Origin: a virus
Virus record (IMG/VR): IMGVR_UViG_3300043773_002546
Coordinates: 1-64,000 of that record
DNA: 64,000 nucleotides
Reading direction: 5' to 3' (one strand)
Shown: positions 1,570 through 58,519 of the stretch, one piece after another
Numbering within the stretch: position 1 is the first letter of the stretch
Layout: each line of letters begins with the position of its first letter
Translations under genes and position numbers: made by a program
The notes under the pieces: generated by a model
What the model was told of the DNA's origin: nothing
Seen by the model: the letters and a program-made list of their open reading frames with translations, nothing else
Database searches by the model: none

Positions 1570-2025
1570 ATGAGCACGACTGTCAATATCGGCGCGTGCG
1601 CGTGCTGCAGCGACCAGCAGTGCGGCACACTGCTCATTACGTATGACTGGAGCGGTACAGGTCAAAACGACTTAGACACCGGCACAACTTTTTTGGGCGT
1701 TAAAGTTGGTTACTCGTGCGGTTTTAGCGGCCCATACATTTCATGGGGCGGCGATAATACAAGCGTGAACGCGACTGAAAGGGTTGAAATACGCTGGCTG
1801 CAGGCGCTTATCGACAATCAATGGTCCGGCAGCGTAAATGTAGATCTTGCCGCGGGCTGGTTCATTCCTGCCGAAGGCAGCGGGCCGTGCACGGTGCGCG
1901 TGCGCTGCCTTGAGGGCGGGCCAGAGCAATCAAAAACCATTTATCCGGGAGAGCAAAGCAGTTGCGCGTCCGAAAATGTCGGCTACATTACCATCGACGA
2001 CAACGGCACGTTTACGTTGTATTGA
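1570..2025 (+). CDS. Small beta-rich protein downstream of the fibre
   Basis: A 151-residue protein; the start is the ATG 2 bp after the fibre stop, since the upstream TTG overlaps the fibre gene. The N-terminus is cysteine-rich (ACACC), and the rest alternates short strand-like stretches with Gly, Ser and Asn turns. There is no signal peptide or membrane segment. Its position suggests a fibre partner, cap or chaperone, but no family is recognised. Confidence 0.75.
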   Translation: MSTTVNIGACACCSDQQCGTLLITYDWSGTGQNDLDTGTTFLGVKVGYSCGFSGPYISWGGDNTSVNATERVEIRWLQALIDNQWSGSVNVDLAAGWFIPAEGSGPCTVRVRCLEGGPEQSKTIYPGEQSSCASENVGYITIDDNGTFTLY

Positions 2026-2032
2026 TGGGCAT

Positions 2033-3925
2033 ATGACCGCTTCTCGTCGCCTGATTCTGATTCACAAGCGCGCGCCAGGTGACACGGTCGTAATGACGGG
2101 CCTGGTCCGAGACATCGCCCTAGCGCGCCCCGGCGAGTTCGAGATCGCCGTGGACACGCACGCCCCGGAGATGTGGGAAAACAATCCGCACATCGTGCCG
2201 CTCAAAGATATGAAACAGCGTGGCCCGGTTGAGCACATTAAGCTCACCTACGGCAAAGGTTTGCGCGACCAGACGCACGAGACGGTTCACTTCTTAAGCT
2301 ACTTCCACCGGGACTTTGAGGTTCAGACACGCGTACGCGTTCCGCTAACACTTCCCTACCCAGACCTGCACCTGAGCGAAGAAGAAAAGTCCCGGCGAAT
2401 CGTGGAAGGACGTTACTGGGTGTTCCTATCTGGCGGAAAAACCGACTTTACCGCCAAGGTCTGGGGCGCTGCCGCCTGGCAAGAAACTATCCGGCAGCTG
2501 ACTGCCCTGGGCATCCCCTGCGTTCAGATTGGCGGCTCCCATAAAACGCACTGGCACCCGGAGGTCCCTGGGGCGTTAAACCTCATAGGCCGGACTAGCA
2601 TGCGCGACTGGCTGCGGCTGATCGCCCAGGCCGACGGTGTTATTTGCGGGGTCACCGGCGCCATGCACATCGCCGCCGCGCTACAGCGCCCGTGCGTCGT
2701 TTTGGCGGGCGGCAGGGAAGCCTGGTGGTGGGAAGCCTATGTCCGAGAGAACCGGGGCCTGGGCGACGCTGAGGTGGCCCAAAAGCTGGCCGTTCCGCAC
2801 AGGTTTCTGCACACCATCGGCCTCCTAGACTGTTGCCAGCGCCACGGTTGCTGGAAGAACAAAGTCGTGCCCTTGAACAACGACCCGTCGGTCTGCAAAT
2901 ACCCCATTGTGACGCCCGGCCAGGCCGTGCCTAAGTGCCTGAATATGATCACCCCAGAACACGTCGTCGAGGCGGTAATGAGCTACTACGAAGACAAGAC
3001 CCTGCCCCCGATCAAGCCCCTAGACCAAGTGCACCGTTTCGCAGCTCTAGAGTGTACCGTTTCGCAGGTGCCCGCCCTGACCAGCTCCGCCCAGCTGGCG
3101 CACGACGACCCGGCGCCCACCGCGACCGTGCCGCCGACCAGTGTTAAAGACAATGATATCTTTGAGCACCCCGTCTTCGGCGGCAAAGCCACGGTGTTCG
3201 TGCTGCTTTACGGCGGCAGCGAATACCACGCCATGCACATGCGCTGCCTGAACAGCATTATCTCCACGACCCCGGCCGGGCGGATCGAGCTGCGGGTGGG
3301 ATCCAACGCCCTGTGTCCGGAAACGCGCGACGTCATAAATCGTTTGGTAGCCCACGGAGTCATCAAAAAGCATTACGAGCACCCGCAAAACAGTTACAAA
3401 TACCCTGTCATGCGCAAAATGTTTTACGACCCAGAGTCACCGATCACCACGAACTACCTGCTGTGGTTCGACGATGACTCAATTTGCGACCGCAATCAGC
3501 ACTGGTTCCTGCTCTTGGCGAAACACCTGATCGCTAACCCGGCTTCCGCACTGGTTGGCGCCGACATGGTGCTGCGGCTGTCACCTGACCAACTGGCGCT
3601 CTACAAGTCGCGTCCCTGGTATCGCGGCAAACCTTTTCGGCTCAAAAACGGCCAGCCTGCGCCAAACGGGAACTACACCAAGTTCGTCGCCGGGGGCTTC
3701 TTTGCCCTAAAGACCGACGCCATGCGGGCGGCCGATATTCCGGACGCGGCGCTTACGCACAACGGCGGAGACTACACAATTGGCGAGCAGCTTTACCAGG
3801 CGGGCTATGCCGTCTCCGGCTGGAATCGGCAAAAGCAGTTCGTGCACACATCTAGCGTGCCCAGGCGCGGCGAGAGCCAGCCGCACTTTGGCACCGCTAA
3901 CTGGCAGAAGCAGTACCAGCCATGA
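2033..3925 (+). CDS. Two-domain glycosyltransferase (GT9-like + GT-A-like)
   Basis: A 630-residue protein. The ATG at 2033 is chosen because it lies just after the previous stop; an upstream in-frame ATG (1847) would overlap the whole end of that gene. Residues about 8-330 resemble GT9 (ADP-heptose transferases): an N-terminal LILIHKRAPGDTVVMTG Rossmann start and the late motif GVTGAMHIAAALQRPCVVL. Residues about 385-630 look like a GT-A transferase, with the metal-binding acidic motif WFDDDS and a downstream FVAGGFFALK. Two active sites in one chain suggest successive sugar additions. Placed beside the collagen-like fibre and in a genome encoding HldE and HldD, it may add heptose to the fibre or a host glycan (inference). 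Confidence 0.75.
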   Translation: MTASRRLILIHKRAPGDTVVMTGLVRDIALARPGEFEIAVDTHAPEMWENNPHIVPLKDMKQRGPVEHIKLTYGKGLRDQTHETVHFLSYFHRDFEVQTRVRVPLTLPYPDLHLSEEEKSRRIVEGRYWVFLSGGKTDFTAKVWGAAAWQETIRQLTALGIPCVQIGGSHKTHWHPEVPGALNLIGRTSMRDWLRLIAQADGVICGVTGAMHIAAALQRPCVVLAGGREAWWWEAYVRENRGLGDAEVAQKLAVPHRFLHTIGLLDCCQRHGCWKNKVVPLNNDPSVCKYPIVTPGQAVPKCLNMITPEHVVEAVMSYYEDKTLPPIKPLDQVHRFAALECTVSQVPALTSSAQLAHDDPAPTATVPPTSVKDNDIFEHPVFGGKATVFVLLYGGSEYHAMHMRCLNSIISTTPAGRIELRVGSNALCPETRDVINRLVAHGVIKKHYEHPQNSYKYPVMRKMFYDPESPITTNYLLWFDDDSICDRNQHWFLLLAKHLIANPASALVGADMVLRLSPDQLALYKSRPWYRGKPFRLKNGQPAPNGNYTKFVAGGFFALKTDAMRAADIPDAALTHNGGDYTIGEQLYQAGYAVSGWNRQKQFVHTSSVPRRGESQPHFGTANWQKQYQP

Positions 3926-7407: not shown

Positions 7408-8029
7408 CGTTCTTCTGACGTTGTTCCTGGATCGATTTGGCATGGAGGCGCTGGAGTGGGATCCGGCCACGATCACCCTGGAGCTCGAGGAGGAGTTTGA
7501 TATCAAACTTCCCCAATTAACTCTGGACAAGCTCCTGGTGGCGATCCAGATCCTCACCACCGACAGCTTCTTCAAGTCAGCGCCCGACTTCATCGACTTT
7601 TGCAATGTCCTTTCCGGCGCCACATACCGGCCCGATATGTGGGACCCTGCGGACGCTGAAGAGGTCGCGTGGGGTCTCACCGAAGCGTTGCTGATTTCGC
7701 CGCCCGACGAAGGTGACCAAGAGCCGTTCACCGACGAAATTCGCGCCTACATCGGCTCTGTGCTTGACTCCGAGGGGCTAATCAACCCGCCGGACATTCT
7801 ACGCATAGCATTGCGGCAGGTGCGCGTCTCGCCAGCAATCGAGGACTTCTCCGACGACCCGGAAATGTTCGCCTCAATTTACGAGGTAGAGCGCGGCAAG
7901 ACCGAAGACATTAATCAGACAATTGTTACCAAGACGCAGCTCTTAGCCGCGCAACTTGCGGCGCTGGATCTGAAAAACGGTAGCGCAAAAAACGTAGCAC
8001 AAATGCTGCAGGCGTCCCTGCAGCGTTAA
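7355..8029 (+). CDS. Unknown helical protein, 224 aa
   Basis: Starts within the end of the preceding gene (53-bp overlap), suggesting coupling. Acidic and helical throughout, with no membrane segment or catalytic motif. It contains a TTTGATATCAAA site at 7496-7507. Followed 18 bp later by csrA. Confidence 0.75.
   Translation: MPKNILQEALTSRETFASVLLTLFLDRFGMEALEWDPATITLELEEEFDIKLPQLTLDKLLVAIQILTTDSFFKSAPDFIDFCNVLSGATYRPDMWDPADAEEVAWGLTEALLISPPDEGDQEPFTDEIRAYIGSVLDSEGLINPPDILRIALRQVRVSPAIEDFSDDPEMFASIYEVERGKTEDINQTIVTKTQLLAAQLAALDLKNGSAKNVAQMLQASLQR
7496..7507. repeat. GATATC-palindrome site 1 (in gene)
   Basis: TTTGATATCAAA, a perfect palindrome containing the exact core TTGATATCAA, read as Phe-Asp-Ile-Lys. 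Confidence 0.7.
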
Positions 8030-37206: not shown

Positions 37207-37384
37207 TCACGCCTATACGTTGTCGTTTGAGATCACGAGCAATCACGAAGAAGGCGAGGATCTCACCGGCCTTGATTTGCGCAAAGCGCTGCTTAAGCGA
37301 CTGGACAATCTAAGCGACGATGACATGCTTGAAGCGTGCGAACCATTCGACACGTTTGAAATCGAAGACGACGAGGAGGATTAA
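37193..37384 (+). CDS. Unknown small acidic protein, 63 aa
   Basis: 14-bp overlap with the previous gene; TAATG overlap with hldD. One strand then a helix, ending EIEDDEED. It resembles other small phage proteins of the FEITSNHEEGED type; function unknown. Confidence 0.7.
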   Translation: MPKFNHAYTLSFEITSNHEEGEDLTGLDLRKALLKRLDNLSDDDMLEACEPFDTFEIEDDEED

Positions 37385-38319
37385 TGATTTTGCTCACTGG
37401 GGCCGCGGGCTTTATTGGCTCAAACGTGCTCCAAGCCCTGAACGACCAGGGCCGAGACGATATCATCTGTGTAGATGACCTGACCAACGGCGCCAAGTGC
37501 CGCAACCTAGTCGGAAAAAAATTCTGGCGGTACGTTGACCGTCGCGCCGTGTTTGGCTTAGACCGCGCGCTGTTTAGTGAAATCATCCATTTAGGCGCCA
37601 ATGTCGACACAACTTGCACTGACGGTCGCGCAATGGTTCGCGACAACTACGACGTCTCGTTTGAGCTCTACAAGCATTTTGTACTCGACAATCCCGAGTG
37701 CACATTTGTTTACGCCTCAACCGCCGGAGTCTACGGCTTAAACGACAAAACGGCCGCGGCGGGTTTCCGCGAAACGCCCGAATGCGAGGATCCGCACTCG
37801 CCGTATGCGTTCAGCAAGTGGCTGTTTGACAGCTACATGCGCATTGAATTAGGCGCGCTGCATACCATGTCGATCACGGGCCTGAGATTCTTTAACGTCT
37901 ACGGCCCCGGCGAGCAGCACAAAAAACGCATGCGCTCGGCTATCGGCAACATGATCAATGATATCAATGAGGGCAGACGGCCCGTGCTTTTTGACGGTAG
38001 CGAATGGATCATGCGAGATTTCGTCTGGGTCGGCGACGCGGTCAATACCGTGCTCTGGGCCTTAGACAGCCGCCCGCGTGGGATCTTCAACGTCGGTAGT
38101 GGGGTAGCCAGATCCTTCCTAGACGCCTACAACGCTGTAGCCGACGCCGCCGCGTACGACGGTCACCCTCAGTACGTAGACTTCCCTAAAGACTTGCGTC
38201 ACTATCAGTGTTTTACGCAAGCTGATCTGACTAATCTGCGCGCCGCTGGTTTTACCCATAAGTTTGCGACGCTTGAAGAAGGCGTAAAACAGTACGTTGC
38301 GCAGTATCACAGGAGTTAA
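37384..38319 (+). CDS. hldD: ADP-glyceromanno-heptose 6-epimerase (HldD)
   Basis: A 311-residue short-chain epimerase with NAD motif TGAAGFIGSN (5-14), the catalytic Tyr-x3-Lys PYAFSK (Tyr141, Lys145), the GLRFFNVYGPGEQHK substrate loop and a C-terminal FTQADLTNLRAAGF. These match E. coli HldD closely. It converts ADP-D-glycero- to ADP-L-glycero-mannoheptose, the donor for LPS core heptose. Together with HldE at 49431 it forms most of an ADP-heptose pathway. Palindrome site 9 lies inside it. Confidence 0.9.
   Translation: MILLTGAAGFIGSNVLQALNDQGRDDIICVDDLTNGAKCRNLVGKKFWRYVDRRAVFGLDRALFSEIIHLGANVDTTCTDGRAMVRDNYDVSFELYKHFVLDNPECTFVYASTAGVYGLNDKTAAAGFRETPECEDPHSPYAFSKWLFDSYMRIELGALHTMSITGLRFFNVYGPGEQHKKRMRSAIGNMINDINEGRRPVLFDGSEWIMRDFVWVGDAVNTVLWALDSRPRGIFNVGSGVARSFLDAYNAVADAAAYDGHPQYVDFPKDLRHYQCFTQADLTNLRAAGFTHKFATLEEGVKQYVAQYHRS
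37954..37971. repeat. GATATC-palindrome site 9 (in hldD)
   Basis: ATCAATGATATCAATGAG; right half matches the consensus fully. Encodes Ile-Asn-Asp-Ile-Asn-Glu. Confidence 0.7.
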
Positions 38320-46326: not shown

Positions 46327-47296
46327 ACGAAACCGCTGGACCATCTCTCGCGTCAGCGGGCGGTGGGCGCATCGGTTTGCGATTTTCTACGTGATCATGG
46401 TGGCGGCGACAAAGAAGCGCGCTTGTTTTGCCACGGATCACGCTACGGTTGTGCGAAAGATTTATCAGGTGCGGTACTTGTGGTTTAAACGGGCCAAGGA
46501 GCTCATGGCTACCGGCCTGTGGCAGCCAGGCCACGGCATCACGCGGTCGTCGGCGGACTACACCGCTCGGCGCTGCCTGTTTTGCCGCCCGAGCTGCGTG
46601 TTTTACGCCCACGGCAACTCGAACAAGCTCCGGCCGTGTAAACAGTCCCGCATCTGCCCGTTCTGTTACGCCCGCACCGTGGCCTACATCTACTGGAACG
46701 TGCGGCAGTACCTGAACACTCGGCGCAAGCAGGCCGACAACGAGATCGTGACCTGCGTGGTCCAGAAAGAGTACCTGGCCGCAAAGGGCTTTACGCCCGA
46801 GACTGGCATGGTCGCTGGCATGCACAGCCCCAACGTCCGGCGGTTGCGGGCGGTTATTGAGAAACACGTGCAACGTTATGAGCGACAGGCCAAGACTATT
46901 CAGCGCCGCACCGATGGAGCCATGTGGTCGGTGATCGTCGAGCCCAAACGTCGCGGCTGGCGCATCGAGACTCGGCAGTACTTCGTGGCCCGCGCTGGCA
47001 CCAAGTTGCCGGTTGTGCGGCTCGTAGACGCCAAGACGGTCTACACCAAATCCGCAAAAATCCAAACTTTTGTGCGGTCCGGCAAGATCTTGGGTCGTTT
47101 CGTCCGCTATCCGGCGGGCATGTTGACGGCCTACGCGGATCTGGCCGGAATTGCCATGCAGGCTACCTACGGGCTGCGCTTGCGCCGCGGCACGGGTCGA
47201 TTTCGCACCTGCGGTAGCGGGCTGGCCGCGGCCTTCAAGCAAGCGAGCAAGAAAAATGAGCGAACGAAAACCCAAGAAAACGCCCAAGCGTCTTAA
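46304..47296 (+). CDS. Unknown zinc-cluster protein, 330 aa
   Basis: ATG 46304. Residues about 80-115 carry CLFCRPSCVFYAHGN and CKQSRICPFCYARTVAY, a double-Cys2 cluster. The body is basic and helical. It recalls zinc-binding plasmid or phage replication initiators, but no HUH motif or NTPase motif is visible. It overlaps the following HTH/DHS-like gene by 41 bp. Confidence 0.7.
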   Translation: MQWVERYKRNRWTISRVSGRWAHRFAIFYVIMVAATKKRACFATDHATVVRKIYQVRYLWFKRAKELMATGLWQPGHGITRSSADYTARRCLFCRPSCVFYAHGNSNKLRPCKQSRICPFCYARTVAYIYWNVRQYLNTRRKQADNEIVTCVVQKEYLAAKGFTPETGMVAGMHSPNVRRLRAVIEKHVQRYERQAKTIQRRTDGAMWSVIVEPKRRGWRIETRQYFVARAGTKLPVVRLVDAKTVYTKSAKIQTFVRSGKILGRFVRYPAGMLTAYADLAGIAMQATYGLRLRRGTGRFRTCGSGLAAAFKQASKKNERTKTQENAQAS

Positions 47297-48386
47297 GACG
47301 TCTTGCGCGATCAGGCAGCGGCTGCAGTTTGTTTTGCAGACGGTGTACAACGGCAAAATTACGTACTTCGCCAAGGCCGCTGGGATGGGCACCCAGCTGA
47401 CACACTTTTCCGAGGTTGTGCGCGGCGCCAAAACGCCCACGCCTAGGTTTATCGCCACGGTTGTCAATCAAGCGGGCATTAACGCCGAGTTTCTGCTCTG
47501 CGGCACCGGGCCGGTCATGGGCACCTCGCGGCTCGAGTACGCAGCCGAGAACCCGGCGCCAAACCTGGAACAGCTCTGGCCCCGCTTTGACACGACCACG
47601 ATGCAGTTCACGGCGAATGACGCCCGGTCGTGCCCGGAAACACAGCCAGGCGAACCGACCGAGCTTGCGTTGGCGCGCAAGATCCACGCGACTCGCGGAG
47701 CAGGCAAGCCAGTGATCGTGTATCTGACCGAGGCGTATGCGATGGCGGGCGCCTGTTCGCCGCTCGCGGAGATGCTGCGTAAACGGTACGTTACCGCCGT
47801 GGCTATGACGGGCGGCGCCGCCTACCGCGACGTTGAACTGGCCCGCTTTGCCGGTTGCGCGCTTAATCCGGCGTTCCCGCACGCGCTCATTGATATCAAT
47901 GAGGCGACTATCCTGGCCGCCAGCAGCGGCATCGGCTACGGCGAAGCCCTGGGACGTTGGTGCTACCCGCGACCCGAGACCCGCTGTACGAGCGTGATTG
48001 CCACTGCTTACGAGATTGGCTGCCCGGTGACCGTGCACACCACAATCGGCGAGAGCCCTAACCACTGGTTTCCCGTTTCACGCGCAGCGCAACTGGGCGC
48101 GGCAATCGGCGCGGCGACCTACACGGACATGCTTGTGCTGACTGAATATTTTAAGCGCTGTAGCGGGTCGCCTGGCGGCGTGTTTATTTCCAGCGACATT
48201 GCTGGGCTGGAGCTGTACCGGTACGCCGTGGCGGCTACGCAGCAAGACGCGCTTGCGCCGCGCGTCGAGGACGTGCAAACCCACTTATTGATTGGCGGGG
48301 AGTTCCGGCTCACCTTTCCCGCGTTATTGACTTCCTGTGACGCCGTATACGACGGAAGTGCAGACGATGGCAGACGCCACAAATGA
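47256..48386 (+). CDS. HTH + deoxyhypusine-synthase-like fusion, 376 aa
   Basis: ATG 47256. Residues about 15-90 look like a repressor-type HTH (RQRLQFVLQTVY… NAEFLLCGTGPVM, like the end of many XRE domains). Residues about 150-345 resemble deoxyhypusine synthase: VIVYLTEAYAMAGACSPLAEM, AVAMTGGAAYRDVELARFAG and TAYEIGCPVTVHTTIGESPN. The canonical catalytic Lys region is not evident and the C-terminus is short, so it may only bind NAD or a polyamine-like ligand. A ligand-controlled regulator is inferred. It contains the perfect copy of the dispersed palindrome (site 12). Confidence 0.7.
   Translation: MSERKPKKTPKRLKTSCAIRQRLQFVLQTVYNGKITYFAKAAGMGTQLTHFSEVVRGAKTPTPRFIATVVNQAGINAEFLLCGTGPVMGTSRLEYAAENPAPNLEQLWPRFDTTTMQFTANDARSCPETQPGEPTELALARKIHATRGAGKPVIVYLTEAYAMAGACSPLAEMLRKRYVTAVAMTGGAAYRDVELARFAGCALNPAFPHALIDINEATILAASSGIGYGEALGRWCYPRPETRCTSVIATAYEIGCPVTVHTTIGESPNHWFPVSRAAQLGAAIGAATYTDMLVLTEYFKRCSGSPGGVFISSDIAGLELYRYAVAATQQDALAPRVEDVQTHLLIGGEFRLTFPALLTSCDAVYDGSADDGRRHK
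47886..47903. repeat. GATATC-palindrome site 12 (perfect 18-bp)
   Basis: CTCATTGATATCAATGAG, the full symmetric consensus, inside the HTH/DHS-like gene, encoding Leu-Ile-Asp-Ile-Asn-Glu. Confidence 0.85.
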
Positions 48387-49431
48387 ACCTGTGCTAGAAG
48401 CGTCGGATCACATCACGAACTATTTTAAGACGGCCGCGCCCCTATTGGCCGACAACCAGCGCGTGAAGATCACTGCCGCTGTTATGGAGCTGCTCCGATT
48501 TACCTCCGGCGCCGCGGTCGTAGCCCAGTGCGATCCCGCCCTGGCCCGCATAGGCTTGATCGAACTGCTCGGCGAGCTCTGCGGCATCGAGTGGGAGAAG
48601 ATTCCTTTCTCGATCACCAAGACAGCGCTGGGCAGTCCCGATCCGACAAGCGACGTGTTTGAGGCTTTGAAGACTTTCGCCAACGTGATCCAGGCCGACG
48701 CGGCGCTGGGCACTGAGGAGGTTTTTCGGTCTCTTTTTACGGTAGCGGAGCAGCCCGCAGCTCCGCCTTTGCAACCCAAGCGGGCACCCAAGGTTGCAGC
48801 ATCGGCCGACGTGGCCAAAATTTTCACGCGGTCGCCTAAGTTTAAGCCAGATTGCGGCGTGGAGCTGCTCAACTGGCAAAGCGAGTATCCCAACGGCGGC
48901 ATGGGCCCGCAGTTGTGGGGTCTACGGTTTGCCGAAAACGAAGATCAAGTTCAGGTGCTGTTGGAAACCGGCGAGCTGGTTAATCTGCCCGCGCAAATTT
49001 TTACCTTGGCTCGCACGACGGAACCGGCGGATTTTTCTGCTGTTCCGCTGGAATTGCTGGCTGCGGCGCGTTCTTTCTGGCCAGGCAAAGAGGCGGAGCT
49101 GGACACGCAATTTGGGCAGTTTACGCGGCCGTTGTATTACTGCCCATACGGAGCGCAAGCTATCGCGGCGTTGCGAGACGTTGCGAATAACCCAGCGTCT
49201 TATCCGCCACCAAACGCAGCGGCGGTGACTTTAAGCGTTGACGGCACTCCATATTTCGTTACGCTGGAAACCCGCGCATCAAAAACTGGCGTTTACGTAA
49301 CGGCCAAACTTATTGACGCAGCCGAAAATATTGTTATGCGATTGGACAAACCCCGGCAGTTTTCTGACTTGGGCGTGTATTTGTTCCCGCTTCCCGACAT
49401 GGTGATCGCCTTGGCGGTAAAGGAGCGCTGA
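48367..49431 (+). CDS. Unknown protein, 354 aa
   Basis: Start ATG 48367 (an in-frame ATG at 48337 is possible). Helical first half with a Pro/Lys linker near residue 145, then a beta-rich second half. Its stop overlaps the hldE start (TGATG). No family recognised. Confidence 0.7.
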   Translation: MADATNEPVLEASDHITNYFKTAAPLLADNQRVKITAAVMELLRFTSGAAVVAQCDPALARIGLIELLGELCGIEWEKIPFSITKTALGSPDPTSDVFEALKTFANVIQADAALGTEEVFRSLFTVAEQPAAPPLQPKRAPKVAASADVAKIFTRSPKFKPDCGVELLNWQSEYPNGGMGPQLWGLRFAENEDQVQVLLETGELVNLPAQIFTLARTTEPADFSAVPLELLAAARSFWPGKEAELDTQFGQFTRPLYYCPYGAQAIAALRDVANNPASYPPPNAAAVTLSVDGTPYFVTLETRASKTGVYVTAKLIDAAENIVMRLDKPRQFSDLGVYLFPLPDMVIALAVKER

Positions 49432-50951
49432 TGTTTCGCAAGCCGCGGATTCTCTTGGTTGGCGACCTTCTTCTTGACGAGTGGGTGCACGTCAAAGCGC
49501 GCGCAGCAAATCCAGAAGGCGCGGCGGCAATTGTTAGCGGCACAGCCGACGACCGCGGCATGTCTTTGGGCGGCGTCGGAATCGCGGCTGCGCTTTTTAA
49601 ACGGCTTGGCGCCAGCGTCAAACTCATGTCGCGCCTGTCGAAGAACACGCACGGCTCGGTCGCGCACGCCCTGATGCACCGCGAACGAATCACGTGCAAG
49701 CACACAACGTTTGCCGACAACTGGACGATGCCACTTAAACGGCGTTACGTCAATGACGCAGGCGTGGTGATTTTTCGTTACGACGAGGAGCAACCGCTGG
49801 ATCAGATGCTGGAAACCGCGGGCACGCATTTTGACACAGCTCGCTATGACGAGCTTGTAAAACGTGCTGATTGCGTGCTGGTGCTTGATTACGACAAAGG
49901 TTACTTGAGCGGTTTTGGTCGTTACATGGTTGAGCGCGCCAGAGAAGCGAACACACCTATTCTGGTAGGCGCCAAACCAATCCGCCTGCGTGAGTATGCA
50001 GGCGCGGACCTGGTGAAGGTCAACGCGCACGAAGCTGCCGAGTTTCTTGACGCCGATTATGGAGACGTCACAGAGAATCTGCCCAAGGCCGCCGAATCTT
50101 TGTGCCACGCTGTATCTTCGCGTGCGGCGGTTATTACGGCCGGGTCATATGGCTCGGCTTGCGCGGTGATGACAAACAAGAACATCACCGCGTCTTTTTC
50201 GTTACCTGCGTTTCCTTGTTTTCCTGCAATTAAAAACTGTGTGGGAGCTGGCGACGCGTTTTTTGCGGGATTGACGATTGACTACGTCACGGCTCGCACA
50301 CGTTTGCGCGGTGCCGGGACGTTGCGCAACATGCGCGCGGCAATCACCGCGGCGGGCGCCGTTGCGGCCGTTTTTTTGGAGAGCGGCCCCGACGGCGTAT
50401 CGCCGCCGGTGCCTGTGCTGGCGCGCTACGATTTGCTGTGCGCTGAATCGCCAGACGCCAAGATCATGTCTCTCGACACCCTAGCCTGGCTTGCCCAGGC
50501 CTGGCGCAAGAACGAGGATGCCGTGGTTTTTACTAACGGCTGCTTTGATCTGCTACACGAGGGGCATTTGCATCTTTTGGACGAGGCCCACCGGCAAGGC
50601 ACACGCCTTATTGTCGCGGTTAACAGCGACGACAGTGTACGAACGTTGAAAGGAGAGGGACGACCAGTCCAACCATTTACGACGCGGGCCAAGCTGTTGG
50701 CGTCGTTGAGTTGCGTGGATGCGGTTGTCTCGTTGGATGAGGAGGATTTTGTTGGAAACACTGCGCTGCGCTCAATGCTTACGACCCTCCAGCCGGACGT
50801 TTTGGTCAAGGGCGACGAATACGCGGAAAGCGAAATCGTCGGCTGGGAAGAGATGGTCAAACGAGAGCCACCGGGGCGCGTGTGGCGCTGTCCCATGCTT
50901 TCCGGCCGCAGCACCACAAACGTTATACAGAAAGTCAAACACAACACATGA
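49431..50951 (+). CDS. hldE: Bifunctional heptose kinase/adenylyltransferase (HldE)
   Basis: A 506-residue protein. The N-terminal ribokinase-fold domain (about 1-330) has RILLVGDLLLDEW, MSLGGVGIAAALFKRLGA and GAGDAF with catalytic Asp (about residues 271-276). The C-terminal nucleotidyltransferase (about 355-506) has NGCFDLLHEGH and IVAVNSDDSVRTLKGEGRPV, ending SGRSTTNVIQKVK. In E. coli HldE phosphorylates heptose-7-phosphate and adenylylates heptose-1-phosphate. The GmhA and GmhB steps would have to come from the host. Confidence 0.93.
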   Translation: MFRKPRILLVGDLLLDEWVHVKARAANPEGAAAIVSGTADDRGMSLGGVGIAAALFKRLGASVKLMSRLSKNTHGSVAHALMHRERITCKHTTFADNWTMPLKRRYVNDAGVVIFRYDEEQPLDQMLETAGTHFDTARYDELVKRADCVLVLDYDKGYLSGFGRYMVERAREANTPILVGAKPIRLREYAGADLVKVNAHEAAEFLDADYGDVTENLPKAAESLCHAVSSRAAVITAGSYGSACAVMTNKNITASFSLPAFPCFPAIKNCVGAGDAFFAGLTIDYVTARTRLRGAGTLRNMRAAITAAGAVAAVFLESGPDGVSPPVPVLARYDLLCAESPDAKIMSLDTLAWLAQAWRKNEDAVVFTNGCFDLLHEGHLHLLDEAHRQGTRLIVAVNSDDSVRTLKGEGRPVQPFTTRAKLLASLSCVDAVVSLDEEDFVGNTALRSMLTTLQPDVLVKGDEYAESEIVGWEEMVKREPPGRVWRCPMLSGRSTTNVIQKVKHNT

Positions 50952-51205
50952 GTAATTTCGATTTCGGCAATTTTATTGACGACGATAACAAGTTCGAGGA
51001 GATGCCGTTGACCGACGCAGAAGAGAATTGCCTGTCGCCTTATGGAATTCTCAGCGCGATGCTGGGTCGGTTAAAAGCTCGGCGAGTTTACAATCGTCTG
51101 GTAAAAATTGCGCAACGAATTAGTGACGCCAAAGGCGGACGCCCTGCCATCCTCTTGGACGAAGATGGCGGCGAATTTGTGACCATTCATGAAGAGCATG
51201 TATGA
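50948..51205 (+). CDS. Unknown protein, 85 aa
   Basis: ATGA-coupled to hldE. Acidic N-terminus (FIDDDNKFEEM), helical centre, strand at the end. No family recognised. Confidence 0.7.
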   Translation: MSNFDFGNFIDDDNKFEEMPLTDAEENCLSPYGILSAMLGRLKARRVYNRLVKIAQRISDAKGGRPAILLDEDGGEFVTIHEEHV

Positions 51206-51942
51206 GCAACACCACCGAAACTCGAGTGGATATGCGGCAGCTGGCGCAGCGGATAAACCTGGGGAACCAGAACATGTCGCTGCAGTGGTTTGAGTTGTTG
51301 GCGGTGACCGACAATGGCGCCGCAGCTGGCCCGCAGACGGAGACGACGCTTTGCGAAAAGTACTGCCAGAAGTACAGGCCGCACATGACGACGTCGACGA
51401 CCAAAGGTTGGATGACCAACTGGCTAGACATCTTTCGCCGTAACGGCGTGGCCCAGAAGGTGGCAGCGGCGGAGTTTCAGAGCGAGACGCGCTGGGAGTT
51501 GACGCCGCTGGGGCGGCAGCTGTGGGCGCACTGCACGACGCCTTCTCCGGAAGAGAACGATACGGCCAATGCGGCGTTTCGGTCTCGGATGTGCAAGCTG
51601 GCGATCGACGGCGCGGCGCCCGTGATCAGGTCTTGTCTGGAACGACTGGACGAGGATATCGCCAACTTTAAGCGCGAAGCAGCCGCGTCTGGCACGCCGC
51701 TGAGCATGGCGCTGTACGTGCGGATTCCGCACCCCGAGCTGTCCACGCCCCGAGAGAACGACCGCCATACGGCTTACGTTTTGTCGATCGACCTCGACGG
51801 CAGCCTCCCGCCACAACCCCCGGGCGACACGGCGCGGCCAGTGACTAGGCAAGAGCGCAGCGGCCGTCGGCGGCGACGGCGCGCTTCGCAGGCCTCGAGC
51901 AATAATTTTTCGGTTTCAGTCATTTCTCACCGGCGGCGCTAG
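51202..51942 (+). CDS. Unknown protein, 246 aa
   Basis: ATGA-coupled. The first 120 residues may be a winged-helix-like domain (TRWELTPLGRQLWAHC). The C-terminus is strongly basic and probably disordered (RSGRRRRRRASQASS). A DNA-associated role is a guess from charge. Confidence 0.65.
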   Translation: MSNTTETRVDMRQLAQRINLGNQNMSLQWFELLAVTDNGAAAGPQTETTLCEKYCQKYRPHMTTSTTKGWMTNWLDIFRRNGVAQKVAAAEFQSETRWELTPLGRQLWAHCTTPSPEENDTANAAFRSRMCKLAIDGAAPVIRSCLERLDEDIANFKREAAASGTPLSMALYVRIPHPELSTPRENDRHTAYVLSIDLDGSLPPQPPGDTARPVTRQERSGRRRRRRASQASSNNFSVSVISHRRR

Positions 51943-55245: not shown

Positions 55246-56424
55246 GTGGAACCGTTGTTTGTATTTACCGCTGATTTGCATCTAGAGGACGGGGCTTGGT
55301 CGACCCGGCCCGGTATTTACGGCGACGCGTATTACAGCTTCGCCCAAATTATTGACTACTGCATCGAGCAGCAGCTGCCGTTGATCATGGGCGGCGACGT
55401 GCTCGAGAAAAAGAGCAACTCCGCGCGGCCAATCGCCAAGCTCTGCGAGGGCCTGTCCCGTATGCAGGCGGCGGGCGTGCCGGTGTACTACATCCAGGGC
55501 AACCACGAGTATGACCGAAATGCTCCCTGGCTTTCGGTTCACCCTTGGTCACAGCACATCCATCAACAGACCGTGGAGATCCAGGGCCACTCGATTTACG
55601 GGCTCGACTGGCTGCCCAAAGGCGAGATCCAGGAGGCTTTCAAGGCGATTCCCAGGGGCACGCACATTCTCGTCACACATCAGGTTTGGGAAGATCTCAT
55701 GAAGGGCGTGGGGCGGACCGAGTGCGCTATCGCCGACGTGCACAACACGCGCACGATTCTGGCGGGCGACTTTCACGTCACAACCACAATCGAGGGCGTC
55801 AACGCGGACGGCTTGCGCACAGAGATGCTTTCGCCTGGGTCGATTTGTATGCAGGACCTGGGCGAGAGTCCGGCAAAATGGTTTTTTGTGATCTGCCGCC
55901 ATCCCGAGGGCGGTTTTCATTTCGAACGCAAAACGCTCCAGACTCGATCGTTCGCCAAATTTGTGGTGAACGACCAGGAGTATCTCGACCAGCTTTGCGC
56001 TGGCGGTCTGGTCCAAGAGATCGAGTGCCTTGCCAAGCAAATTTCTACGGAAGCCAAAACCGCGGGCGTCGACAAGCCAATCGTACGAATCAAGTTTGAC
56101 AAGAACCTGCCCGACGCGTTTTTGCGGTTAACCACCGCGGCAGGCGACGCCTGCCACTTGTTCTGTGAGGCGCTGGCGGAACGCGGCCAAGCCGAGCGGC
56201 AGCAGACAACACGCAGCAGCGCTAAAAACGATCTTTTGGCGGCGCTAGCCGACTTGCTGGGCGATGAAACCCCGGCGTACAAATTAGCGGCCGCGTTGGT
56301 AACGGCCGAAGACCCGGCAAAAAAACTCGAAGGCGTTTTTGCAGAATTTCAAGAAGGGACAAGTCATGCAGTTGTTACGTTTGGAAGTCCGGAACTGGGT
56401 ACACCATCGACACCGGGTGTGTGA
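55246..56424 (+). CDS. sbcD: SbcD/gp47-like nuclease, 392 aa (GTG start)
   Basis: GTG 55246 with GGGAGAAA upstream. Metallophosphoesterase motifs in order: TADLHL (8-13), GGDVLE (49-54), GNHEYD (85-90), VTHQVW (143-148) and GDFHVT (174-179). It is the nuclease partner of SbcC, processing hairpins and DNA ends; T4 gp47 is the analogue. The last 59 bp overlap the sbcC start in another frame. Confidence 0.9.
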   Translation: MEPLFVFTADLHLEDGAWSTRPGIYGDAYYSFAQIIDYCIEQQLPLIMGGDVLEKKSNSARPIAKLCEGLSRMQAAGVPVYYIQGNHEYDRNAPWLSVHPWSQHIHQQTVEIQGHSIYGLDWLPKGEIQEAFKAIPRGTHILVTHQVWEDLMKGVGRTECAIADVHNTRTILAGDFHVTTTIEGVNADGLRTEMLSPGSICMQDLGESPAKWFFVICRHPEGGFHFERKTLQTRSFAKFVVNDQEYLDQLCAGGLVQEIECLAKQISTEAKTAGVDKPIVRIKFDKNLPDAFLRLTTAAGDACHLFCEALAERGQAERQQTTRSSAKNDLLAALADLLGDETPAYKLAAALVTAEDPAKKLEGVFAEFQEGTSHAVVTFGSPELGTPSTPGV

Positions 56425-58519
56425 ATTCACGCGCGGGTTGGTTGCCATTCTGGGCGAGAACGGCTCCGGCAAGAGCAGTCTCTTCGGCGCGCTGAAGTGG
56501 CTCCTGACCGGCGAGAACCCTAACTACGGCAGCAAGACTGACAACATCAGTCAGTACGCCAAAGAAGGCGAGCCGTCTTTCGCCAGCCTGGAGTTCGAAC
56601 ACTCCGGGCACATTGCCGTAGTGACCCGCCATCTTCTTCCTGAGAAGGAGCAAGCCACGCTTACCATTGACGGCGTGGAAGCAGGCCGGGGCGAGAAAGG
56701 CGTCACTGCCGGAATCGAAAAGCTCTTAGGCGTGGACGCCAAGTTTATCTCGCGTTTTATTATTGTCGGTCAAACGGAGATTTTCTCGTTTATCGACGAC
56801 AATCAGACCGACACAGATAAATTCTTCCAGCGGTTGTTTAACACCGCCAAGGCCGACAAGTGCCAGGACGTGATCGGCAAGAACATTTCCAAGATCCAGA
56901 TCCCCGAGGTGCTCAAGACTCCGGCGCAGCTGGACACGGAAATCCAGACTGCCAAGGACGCGCTGTCCGAAACGGACCGGCAGATTCACGGCTTGCCCGA
57001 CATGGCCGCCTTCCTGGCTGAGCAGAAAGAGCAGCAGAAGACGATTCAGGCCTGGCGGAACCGCGAAAAGGCCGCCGCTGAGCTGGCCAAGCTTGACGCC
57101 CAGCTCCAGACGGCCAACGCCCAATTAGAAACCGCAAAGGAAGACTCCGACCGCTACGAGTCAGACTTGGAGGCGCTCGAGGAGGCATCCCAGGGCCAAG
57201 AGGAGGCGATCACCGCCGCCCGCACGGCGCTGGGCCACTGGCAGAGCTACAAGAGCGTTGCCAAGTCGCGGGAGCAGCTTCAGACCACGCGTCAGGCGAT
57301 AGCCGCCTCGCGAGCCAAAGACCCCGAGCCGGAGAAGCCGGGAGCGCTTTCGGCGGAGGAACTAGCCAAGGACGCCCACAGCCGCCGTGAACGCATTAAA
57401 GAGATCAACGCGTTTATCCGTATGTTCGACGAGCATGGCGAGGCGGAGTGCCCGACCTGCCACACGCCGTCGAGCCAGCTGGCCGATCAGGTCGAGAAGC
57501 GCAAGGCGGAGCTGCTTGTCCGGCAGCAGGAAGAAACAGAACTGACCCTTGCGTACAGCGCGCAGTGGAAACTAGAAGAAGCCTGGAAACGTTGGGAGAG
57601 TCGCGAACGCGATCGGGCGCTTTCTGAACAGAAACTCGCCGCCGCCGAACAAAGCCTGCAAGACGTCCAGCCGCCGGTCTTGAGCGAAGCCGACCTGTCG
57701 CAGACGGTCACCGATTATGACTCGTTCCAGAAGGCCAAGCAGGACATCCTGCCGCTGGCGCAGGCGGCCAAGGTCCGCAATGCCCAGCTGGAGGGCGCGC
57801 TCGTGAGCCTGGCCGAACGGCGGAAGCAACTGCTCAATGATATCAATGAGGCAGAGGTTACCGAGGCCGACGCCACGCTGGCGCAGCAGCGGCTCAACCA
57901 TGTCCAAGAGCAATTTGCCCAGCGTACGAAGCTCGACACAGCTCGCGCTACGCTTGTGCATGCCCGCGACGCCCTTCAGGCCCAACGGGACGCCGCCGAG
58001 GCCGAAGTGACCTTGGCGGGTAGACTCAGGGAATGGACGCACGTCGCTGAAACAGCCCGCGAGGCCCTCAAGAATGCTCCGCGGCTGGTTGCTCAACGCA
58101 ACCTGCAACGGCTAGAAACAAGTATTAACGAACTGTTGCAGATTTTTCAGGTGAACTTCCAGGTGCGGGTTGCCGAGCGCGACACGCCTACGTTTATTGC
58201 GGAGTTCTACGATGGTCGCCGACAAGTTGCCCAGCGACTCTCCATCGGACAAAAAACTGTCTTGGCACTTGCGTTTCGAGTCGCCGTCAACGCCATGTTC
58301 GCCGAAGAAATCGGACTCTTGGCGCTGGATGAGCCAACTGCATCGCTGGATCAGCCGCGTATTCGGGCGCTAGCCCCGGTCCTGGAAAAGCTTCGAGAGC
58401 TTTCCACGGCTAAAGGGCTGCAATGTCTGCTTGTGACGCACGCGACGACCTTGTCGCACCTCTTTGAATCCGCTATTGAACTTGAACCCCCAGAGTTGCG
58501 TCATGCAAGCAGTAACTGA
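56366..58519 (+). CDS. sbcC: SbcC/gp46-like SMC-type ATPase, 717 aa
   Basis: ATG 56366 with AAGGGA upstream. Walker A GENGSGKSS (30-38), long coiled coils, a zinc hook ECPTCHTP near residue 361, a signature LSIGQKTVLALAF near 623 and Walker B LALDEPTASLD near 652. With SbcD it forms the Mre11-Rad50-type complex for recombination-dependent replication. Palindrome site 13 lies in the second coiled coil. Confidence 0.92.
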   Translation: MQLLRLEVRNWVHHRHRVCEFTRGLVAILGENGSGKSSLFGALKWLLTGENPNYGSKTDNISQYAKEGEPSFASLEFEHSGHIAVVTRHLLPEKEQATLTIDGVEAGRGEKGVTAGIEKLLGVDAKFISRFIIVGQTEIFSFIDDNQTDTDKFFQRLFNTAKADKCQDVIGKNISKIQIPEVLKTPAQLDTEIQTAKDALSETDRQIHGLPDMAAFLAEQKEQQKTIQAWRNREKAAAELAKLDAQLQTANAQLETAKEDSDRYESDLEALEEASQGQEEAITAARTALGHWQSYKSVAKSREQLQTTRQAIAASRAKDPEPEKPGALSAEELAKDAHSRRERIKEINAFIRMFDEHGEAECPTCHTPSSQLADQVEKRKAELLVRQQEETELTLAYSAQWKLEEAWKRWESRERDRALSEQKLAAAEQSLQDVQPPVLSEADLSQTVTDYDSFQKAKQDILPLAQAAKVRNAQLEGALVSLAERRKQLLNDINEAEVTEADATLAQQRLNHVQEQFAQRTKLDTARATLVHARDALQAQRDAAEAEVTLAGRLREWTHVAETAREALKNAPRLVAQRNLQRLETSINELLQIFQVNFQVRVAERDTPTFIAEFYDGRRQVAQRLSIGQKTVLALAFRVAVNAMFAEEIGLLALDEPTASLDQPRIRALAPVLEKLRELSTAKGLQCLLVTHATTLSHLFESAIELEPPELRHASSN
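57833..57850. repeat. GATATC-palindrome site 13 (in sbcC)
   Basis: CTCAATGATATCAATGAG, one mismatch to the 18-bp consensus. Encodes Leu-Asn-Asp-Ile-Asn-Glu. Confidence 0.8.

Follow-up and report, generated by a model that had tools for sequence, protein, structure and literature searches.

The 64-kb window analysed here (the whole 64,000-nucleotide stretch of DNA) belongs to a 197,309-bp virus record encoding a terminase large subunit, an SbcC-like protein, and a helicase, which identifies the source virus as a large tailed phage; its terminase shares 33% identity at best with those of named phages. The gene of interest is one uninterrupted frame of 376 codons starting from an ATG and encoding 376 aa, and it lies within a string of overlapping + strand genes at 46397-47296, 47256-48386, 48367-49431, 49431-50951, 50948-51205, and 51202-51942 (coordinates from gene calls made in the present analysis). 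The cysteine-rich gene overlapping its start (46397-47296, CRPCKQSRICPFCYARTVAYIYWNVRQYL) has no family match. The features on which the argument draws are the following:

1847..3925, + strand, GT9 (heptosyltransferase family) domain protein (PF01075, 49-52 bits, cut-off 22)
37384..38319, + strand, HldD, ADP-glyceromanno-heptose 6-epimerase (TIGR02197, 287 bits; curated cut-off 274.6)
47256..48386, + strand, fusion gene, predicted XRE-like HTH plus GSU2086-like (DHS-fold) domain (open frame, NF052581 E 1.5e-21, fold match)
47304..47525, + strand, likely XRE/434-type HTH region, residues ~17-90 (weak concordant matches, five helices at low confidence)
47574..48383, + strand, GSU2086-like domain with predicted DHS/LOR-SDH/ArgZ fold, residues ~107-376, HMM match 134-326 (NCBIfam, HMM, and fold)
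47886..47903, no strand, perfect 18-bp palindrome CTCATTGATATCAATGAG within the fusion gene, counted among the phage's 31 TGATATCA and 21 TTGATATCAA sites
48367..49431, + strand, functionally unassigned gene lying between the fusion gene and hldE, its start overlapping the former and its end the latter (weak match to a PHROG of unknown function)
49431..50951, + strand, HldE-like bifunctional heptose-7-phosphate kinase / heptose-1-phosphate adenylyltransferase (NF008454, PHROG 7878)

The original prediction described the gene as an HTH joined to a deoxyhypusine synthase (DHS)-like domain in one open reading frame, a description upheld by the open frame, a GSU2086-family match, a fold match, and concordant HTH matches; the stretches quoted there, NAEFLLCGTGPVM and TAYEIGCPVTVHTTIG, both occur in the 376-aa protein. 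The open reading frame is real, and the joining of an HTH to a GSU2086-like domain is very probably so. The N-terminal ~90 residues, regarded from the outset as a repressor-type HTH, had no Pfam match, the fusion protein matched no XRE (Cro/C1-type) profile significantly, and an HTH_3 search of the record returned nothing above the cut-off, the fusion protein included. The 434 repressor provided the top PDB matches of this part in phmmer (E 0.18-0.46), PHROG 3642 ('HTH DNA binding protein') matched it at E 0.015, its single phage match by tblastn was a 'transcriptional repressor' (E 0.3), and its ending, LLCGTGPVM, is similar to the usual XRE ending (434: LLNGT). Low-confidence AF2 models (pLDDT about 50) showed five N-terminal helices in the order expected of an XRE domain, and Foldseek ranked 434 Cro and the 434 repressor at the top without significance. 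Since these individually insignificant matches all agree on the 434/XRE type, the region is likely to be an XRE/434-type HTH, in support of the earlier assignment.

The C-terminal part had no significant Pfam match, and the DHS family (PF01916) was matched nowhere in the phage record, the fusion protein included. The route to the GSU2086 family (NF052581) was a weak tblastn match on a plasmid of Solidesulfovibrio; NCBIfam detected the family in this part at E 1.5e-21 and 77 bits, below the curated cut-off of 250 bits, so that the domain is homologous to the GSU2086 family yet outside its curated bounds. An HMM built from 79 bacterial GSU2086-type proteins aligned with phage residues 134-326 (59 bits), and a search with the phage protein of 395 genomes from the phylum of a Desulfovibrio MAG gave matches in 240 of them (E <= 0.01, best E 8e-17); the matches listed were all confined to residues ~122-342, and none of them covered the HTH part. 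Modelled from 73 sequences with AlphaFold, the fusion protein reached a pTM of 0.71, with much of the domain core at pLDDT 80-97. The best PDB fold matches of the C-terminal model were LOR/SDH (Foldseek E 4.5e-6), ArgZ (6.9e-6), and archaeal DHS (7cmc, 2.6e-5), the matches to LOR/SDH, ArgZ, and DHS structures spanning E 4.5e-6 to 1e-3 with modest TM-scores of 0.3-0.5, and AgrE with NAD was also among them. A bacterial GSU2086 member likewise weakly matched ArgZ-C, TIGR00300, and DHS, and a family-family comparison of GSU2086 with DHS (E 1e-4) is supportive only, as the DHS set held a few wrongly cut sequences. In the model, then, the domain adopts a deoxyhypusine-synthase/LOR-SDH/ArgZ fold. 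The DHS-like domain first proposed therefore stands as a fold and not as a family, the closest family by sequence being GSU2086, which has no assigned function, rather than DHS. Structure prediction, which had been suggested as a check, recovered the DHS-like fold, with the HTH helices at low confidence and the 434 ranks short of significance. As the protein qualifies as a member of neither DHS nor the curated GSU2086 family, the description that fits it best is that of a divergent GSU2086 relative fused to an HTH.

The domain has lost much of what defines its bacterial relatives. The 77 columns that are invariant among 17 bacterial members of the GSU2086 alignment fall to 23 once the phage domain is added, so the invariant residues of NF052581 are not retained as a set; what survives is chiefly glycine, with a small number of polar positions (D, E, N, T, H, E). 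Among the family's features, GxHxxR, TTE/GQFGxW, and the C-terminal RPWKT region have been lost or deleted, as have K235 and the NGxxxHD histidine. The catalytic lysine that DHS carries near its C-terminus is absent, as had been noted for the catalytic Lys region as a whole: the last 75 residues hold no lysine except the C-terminal one, and neither of the candidate GSU2086-family counterparts of the DHS lysine is present. DHS proper is ruled out by the missing PF01916 match and the lack of a lysine in place. We infer that the phage domain is no longer an enzyme.

The genomic context points towards heptose metabolism. The HldE-like gene, whose product matches NF008454 across its full length (E 1.9e-65, under the curated cut-off), sits two genes downstream of the fusion gene in what looks like an operon. 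Genes for HldD and for two proteins of the GT9 (heptosyltransferase) family are present elsewhere in the phage. Neither GmhA nor GmhB was found in the phage record, so the phage's heptose pathway is partial. Among 81 bacterial GSU2086 loci (the top 80 among 136 matches to a single query, with the query's own locus added, a sample that favours one subfamily), an HldE-like gene was found within ~6 kb in 70 and a GmhA-like gene in 48, many directly adjacent, in flanks fetched for up to about 6 kb per side and often shortened by contig ends. The closer relatives of the phage domain showed HldE- or GmhA-like genes in the short flanks of five out of six. In Geobacter sulfurreducens the order is hldE (GSU2085), GSU2086, and gmhA (GSU2087), and the three genes have similar mutant scores for electrode growth (PMC5585712). 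The link between the GSU2086 family and heptose genes holds in the phage too. The idea that GSU2086 takes the place of the GmhB phosphatase was ruled out, GmhB-like genes being present in 27 of 30 genomes, and a possible link to polyamines or DNA hypermodification found no supporting paper in the literature search and no sign among the genes examined. Beside the GT9 gene at 1847-3925 lies a gene for a collagen-like GETGPT repeat protein (282-1568), which could be a glycosylated fibre; the repeats enriched near position 640 belong to this coding repeat and were ruled out as guide repeats.

The reading favoured here, tentatively and at somewhat less than even confidence, is that of a phage one-component regulator whose GSU2086-derived domain senses a heptose-pathway metabolite and controls the hldE gene string. 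The N-terminal XRE/434-type HTH would bind DNA, and the GSU2086-derived domain at the C-terminus, stripped of most family-invariant polar residues, would serve as a ligand sensor. The most likely ligand would be a metabolite of the ADP-heptose pathway, part of which the phage encodes, either as an intermediate or as the product; binding of this ligand would switch the hldE gene string and perhaps further phage genes. A sensor is preferred over an enzyme because most family-invariant polar residues are lost and there is no DHS-type lysine, and a heptose-pathway ligand is proposed mainly because the link between GSU2086 and heptose genes recurs in the phage. The family and fold matches, the agreeing HTH matches, the heptose context, the fall from 77 to 23 invariant columns, and the confinement of the listed bacterial matches to the C-terminal part speak for a regulator; against it, the HTH depends on weak matches and a low-confidence model, the phage offers a single example, and its pathway is partial. 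In this reading the protein would be a sugar-sensing switch of a previously undescribed kind, and we know of no one-component regulator with a DHS-fold or GSU2086 domain.

Several other explanations were weighed against the regulator. The protein could still be a GSU2086-type heptose-pathway enzyme, possibly NAD-dependent, with the HTH serving oligomerisation or tethering, or it could be a bifunctional enzyme-regulator; the glycines and polar residues kept in the fold core and the retained HldE neighbourhood are consistent with this, whereas the loss or deletion of the motifs listed above, from GxHxxR to the RPWKT region, makes it unlikely. Sensing of NAD, spermidine, or another DHS-related ligand, as the original prediction had it, seems distinctly improbable: DHS is in the top fold matches and AgrE was matched with NAD bound, but sequence and gene context indicate the GSU2086/heptose family, with no PF01916 match in the phage and with a link to ADP-heptose genes in place of one to polyamines or hypusine, so that a heptose-pathway ligand is favoured instead. 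The frame might also be read as two proteins, either with the small HTH protein not made or with Met88 (47517) as an internal start, so that a GSU2086-like protein of 289 aa is produced in addition to the fusion; Met88 lies exactly at the domain border, but the frame runs from one part into the other without a stop and Met88 has no clear ribosome-binding site before it, and we consider this very unlikely. A captured, decaying gene without function, to which the loss of most invariant residues and its occurrence in one phage only (by peptide-based scans) would conform, is equally implausible given an intact frame with overlapping neighbours, a domain core modelled largely at pLDDT 80-97, and a retained heptose gene link.

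The search for the fusion in other phages, suggested at the outset, was carried out and found no viral relative, whether with the single protein, the alignment, or the motif, or through the neighbouring HldE and 48367-49431 genes; such scans need short conserved peptides, and distant relatives can escape them. A BFVD fold search also returned no viral relative of the fusion protein.

The perfect 18-bp palindrome reported inside the gene was located at 47886-47903. A single copy is unremarkable, as the chance expectation for perfect palindromes of at least 18 bp is a mean of 0.42 per 64 kb; the phage has four perfect 18-bp palindromes, all sharing ATTGATATCAAT. CTCATTGATATCAATGAG is an extended form of a palindrome whose core, TTGATATCAA, is found at 21 places in the 197-kb record where 0.05-0.38 would be expected (Markov orders 1-4), and most single-base variants of this core are absent, with ATGATATCAA and TTGATATCAT as the main exceptions. 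The form TGATATCA has 31 sites in the 197-kb record, those in the window being at 7498, 11560, 17384, 30864, 36429, 37959, 40449, 41733, 47891, 57838, and 59018. Non-coding DNA, 11% of the record, is touched by 13 of the 31 (binomial P 9e-6), 18 sites were observed in coding DNA against 1.3 after synonymous shuffling, and four (36429, 87945, 95768, and 108428) share bases with the stop codon of the gene before them. An origin as a coding artefact (LIDIN peptides) was ruled out by the synonymous shuffling, the multiple frames, and the sites touching non-coding DNA. A property of the phage group was rejected as well, since the 31 other viral contigs tested carry one or two TTGATATCAATGA places each and none of them shows the dispersed motif. 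The palindrome is a motif of the DNA itself, for which a dispersed protein-binding site is the simplest candidate explanation, and it points to a possible genome-wide DNA-binding system. Autoregulation through the copy in the gene, as first suggested, is possible and not specific, because, with 21 copies of the core spread over the phage, the site is not private to this gene. The only tie between the two is that the fusion protein is the sole XRE-like protein noticed, and it is quite unlikely that the protein acts as a phage-wide metabolite-responsive repressor, with its HTH on the dispersed TTGATATCAA and its DHS-fold domain reading an ADP-heptose-pathway metabolite, tuning expression to envelope-sugar supply.

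Outside the window, the intergenic palindromes at record positions 95768, 102980, and 163989 have a GCTAAAT ... GGGCATATnnAGT pattern in common downstream, perhaps a promoter or terminator element. Within the window, SbcD/Mre11-like and SbcC-like genes adjoin at 55246-58519, in a phage rich in short palindromes, and the gene at 58464-59435 was matched weakly by the NCBIfam model for the TIGR-Tas RNA-guided endonuclease (E 0.001; 19 bits, cut-off 100) and had no Pfam match.

If the favoured regulator is correct, the DHS-fold domain would join the enzyme folds reused as sensors, the widespread, uncharacterised GSU2086 family would gain a first lead on its recognition target, an ADP-heptose-pathway molecule, and the phage would couple gene control to envelope-sugar metabolism. 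Independently of the regulator, the strongly over-represented palindrome suggests a genome-wide DNA-binding system. Among known systems, the phage protein resembles the GSU2086 family (NF052581) in its homology over residues 134-326 and its nearby HldE gene, and differs in the added N-terminal HTH, a score of 77 against 250 bits, and the missing invariants and C-terminal RPWKT region. It shares its predicted fold with deoxyhypusine synthase (PF01916) and with the C-terminal domain of the LOR/SDH-ArgZ ornithine cyclodeaminases, and departs from DHS in having no PF01916 match, catalytic lysine, or visible polyamine context. One-component regulators with an enzyme-derived sensor include ROK, RpiR/SIS, Bacillus subtilis PurR, and BzdR, which the fusion resembles in joining an HTH to a domain derived from a metabolic-enzyme family. 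The dispersed palindrome, in turn, recalls in number and spread the stoperators of mycobacteriophage L5, of which more than 20 copies of a short asymmetric 13-mer are spread through the genome (PMC9283540); however, the phage site is a perfect palindrome with many intragenic copies and does not fit that asymmetric, transcription-oriented pattern.
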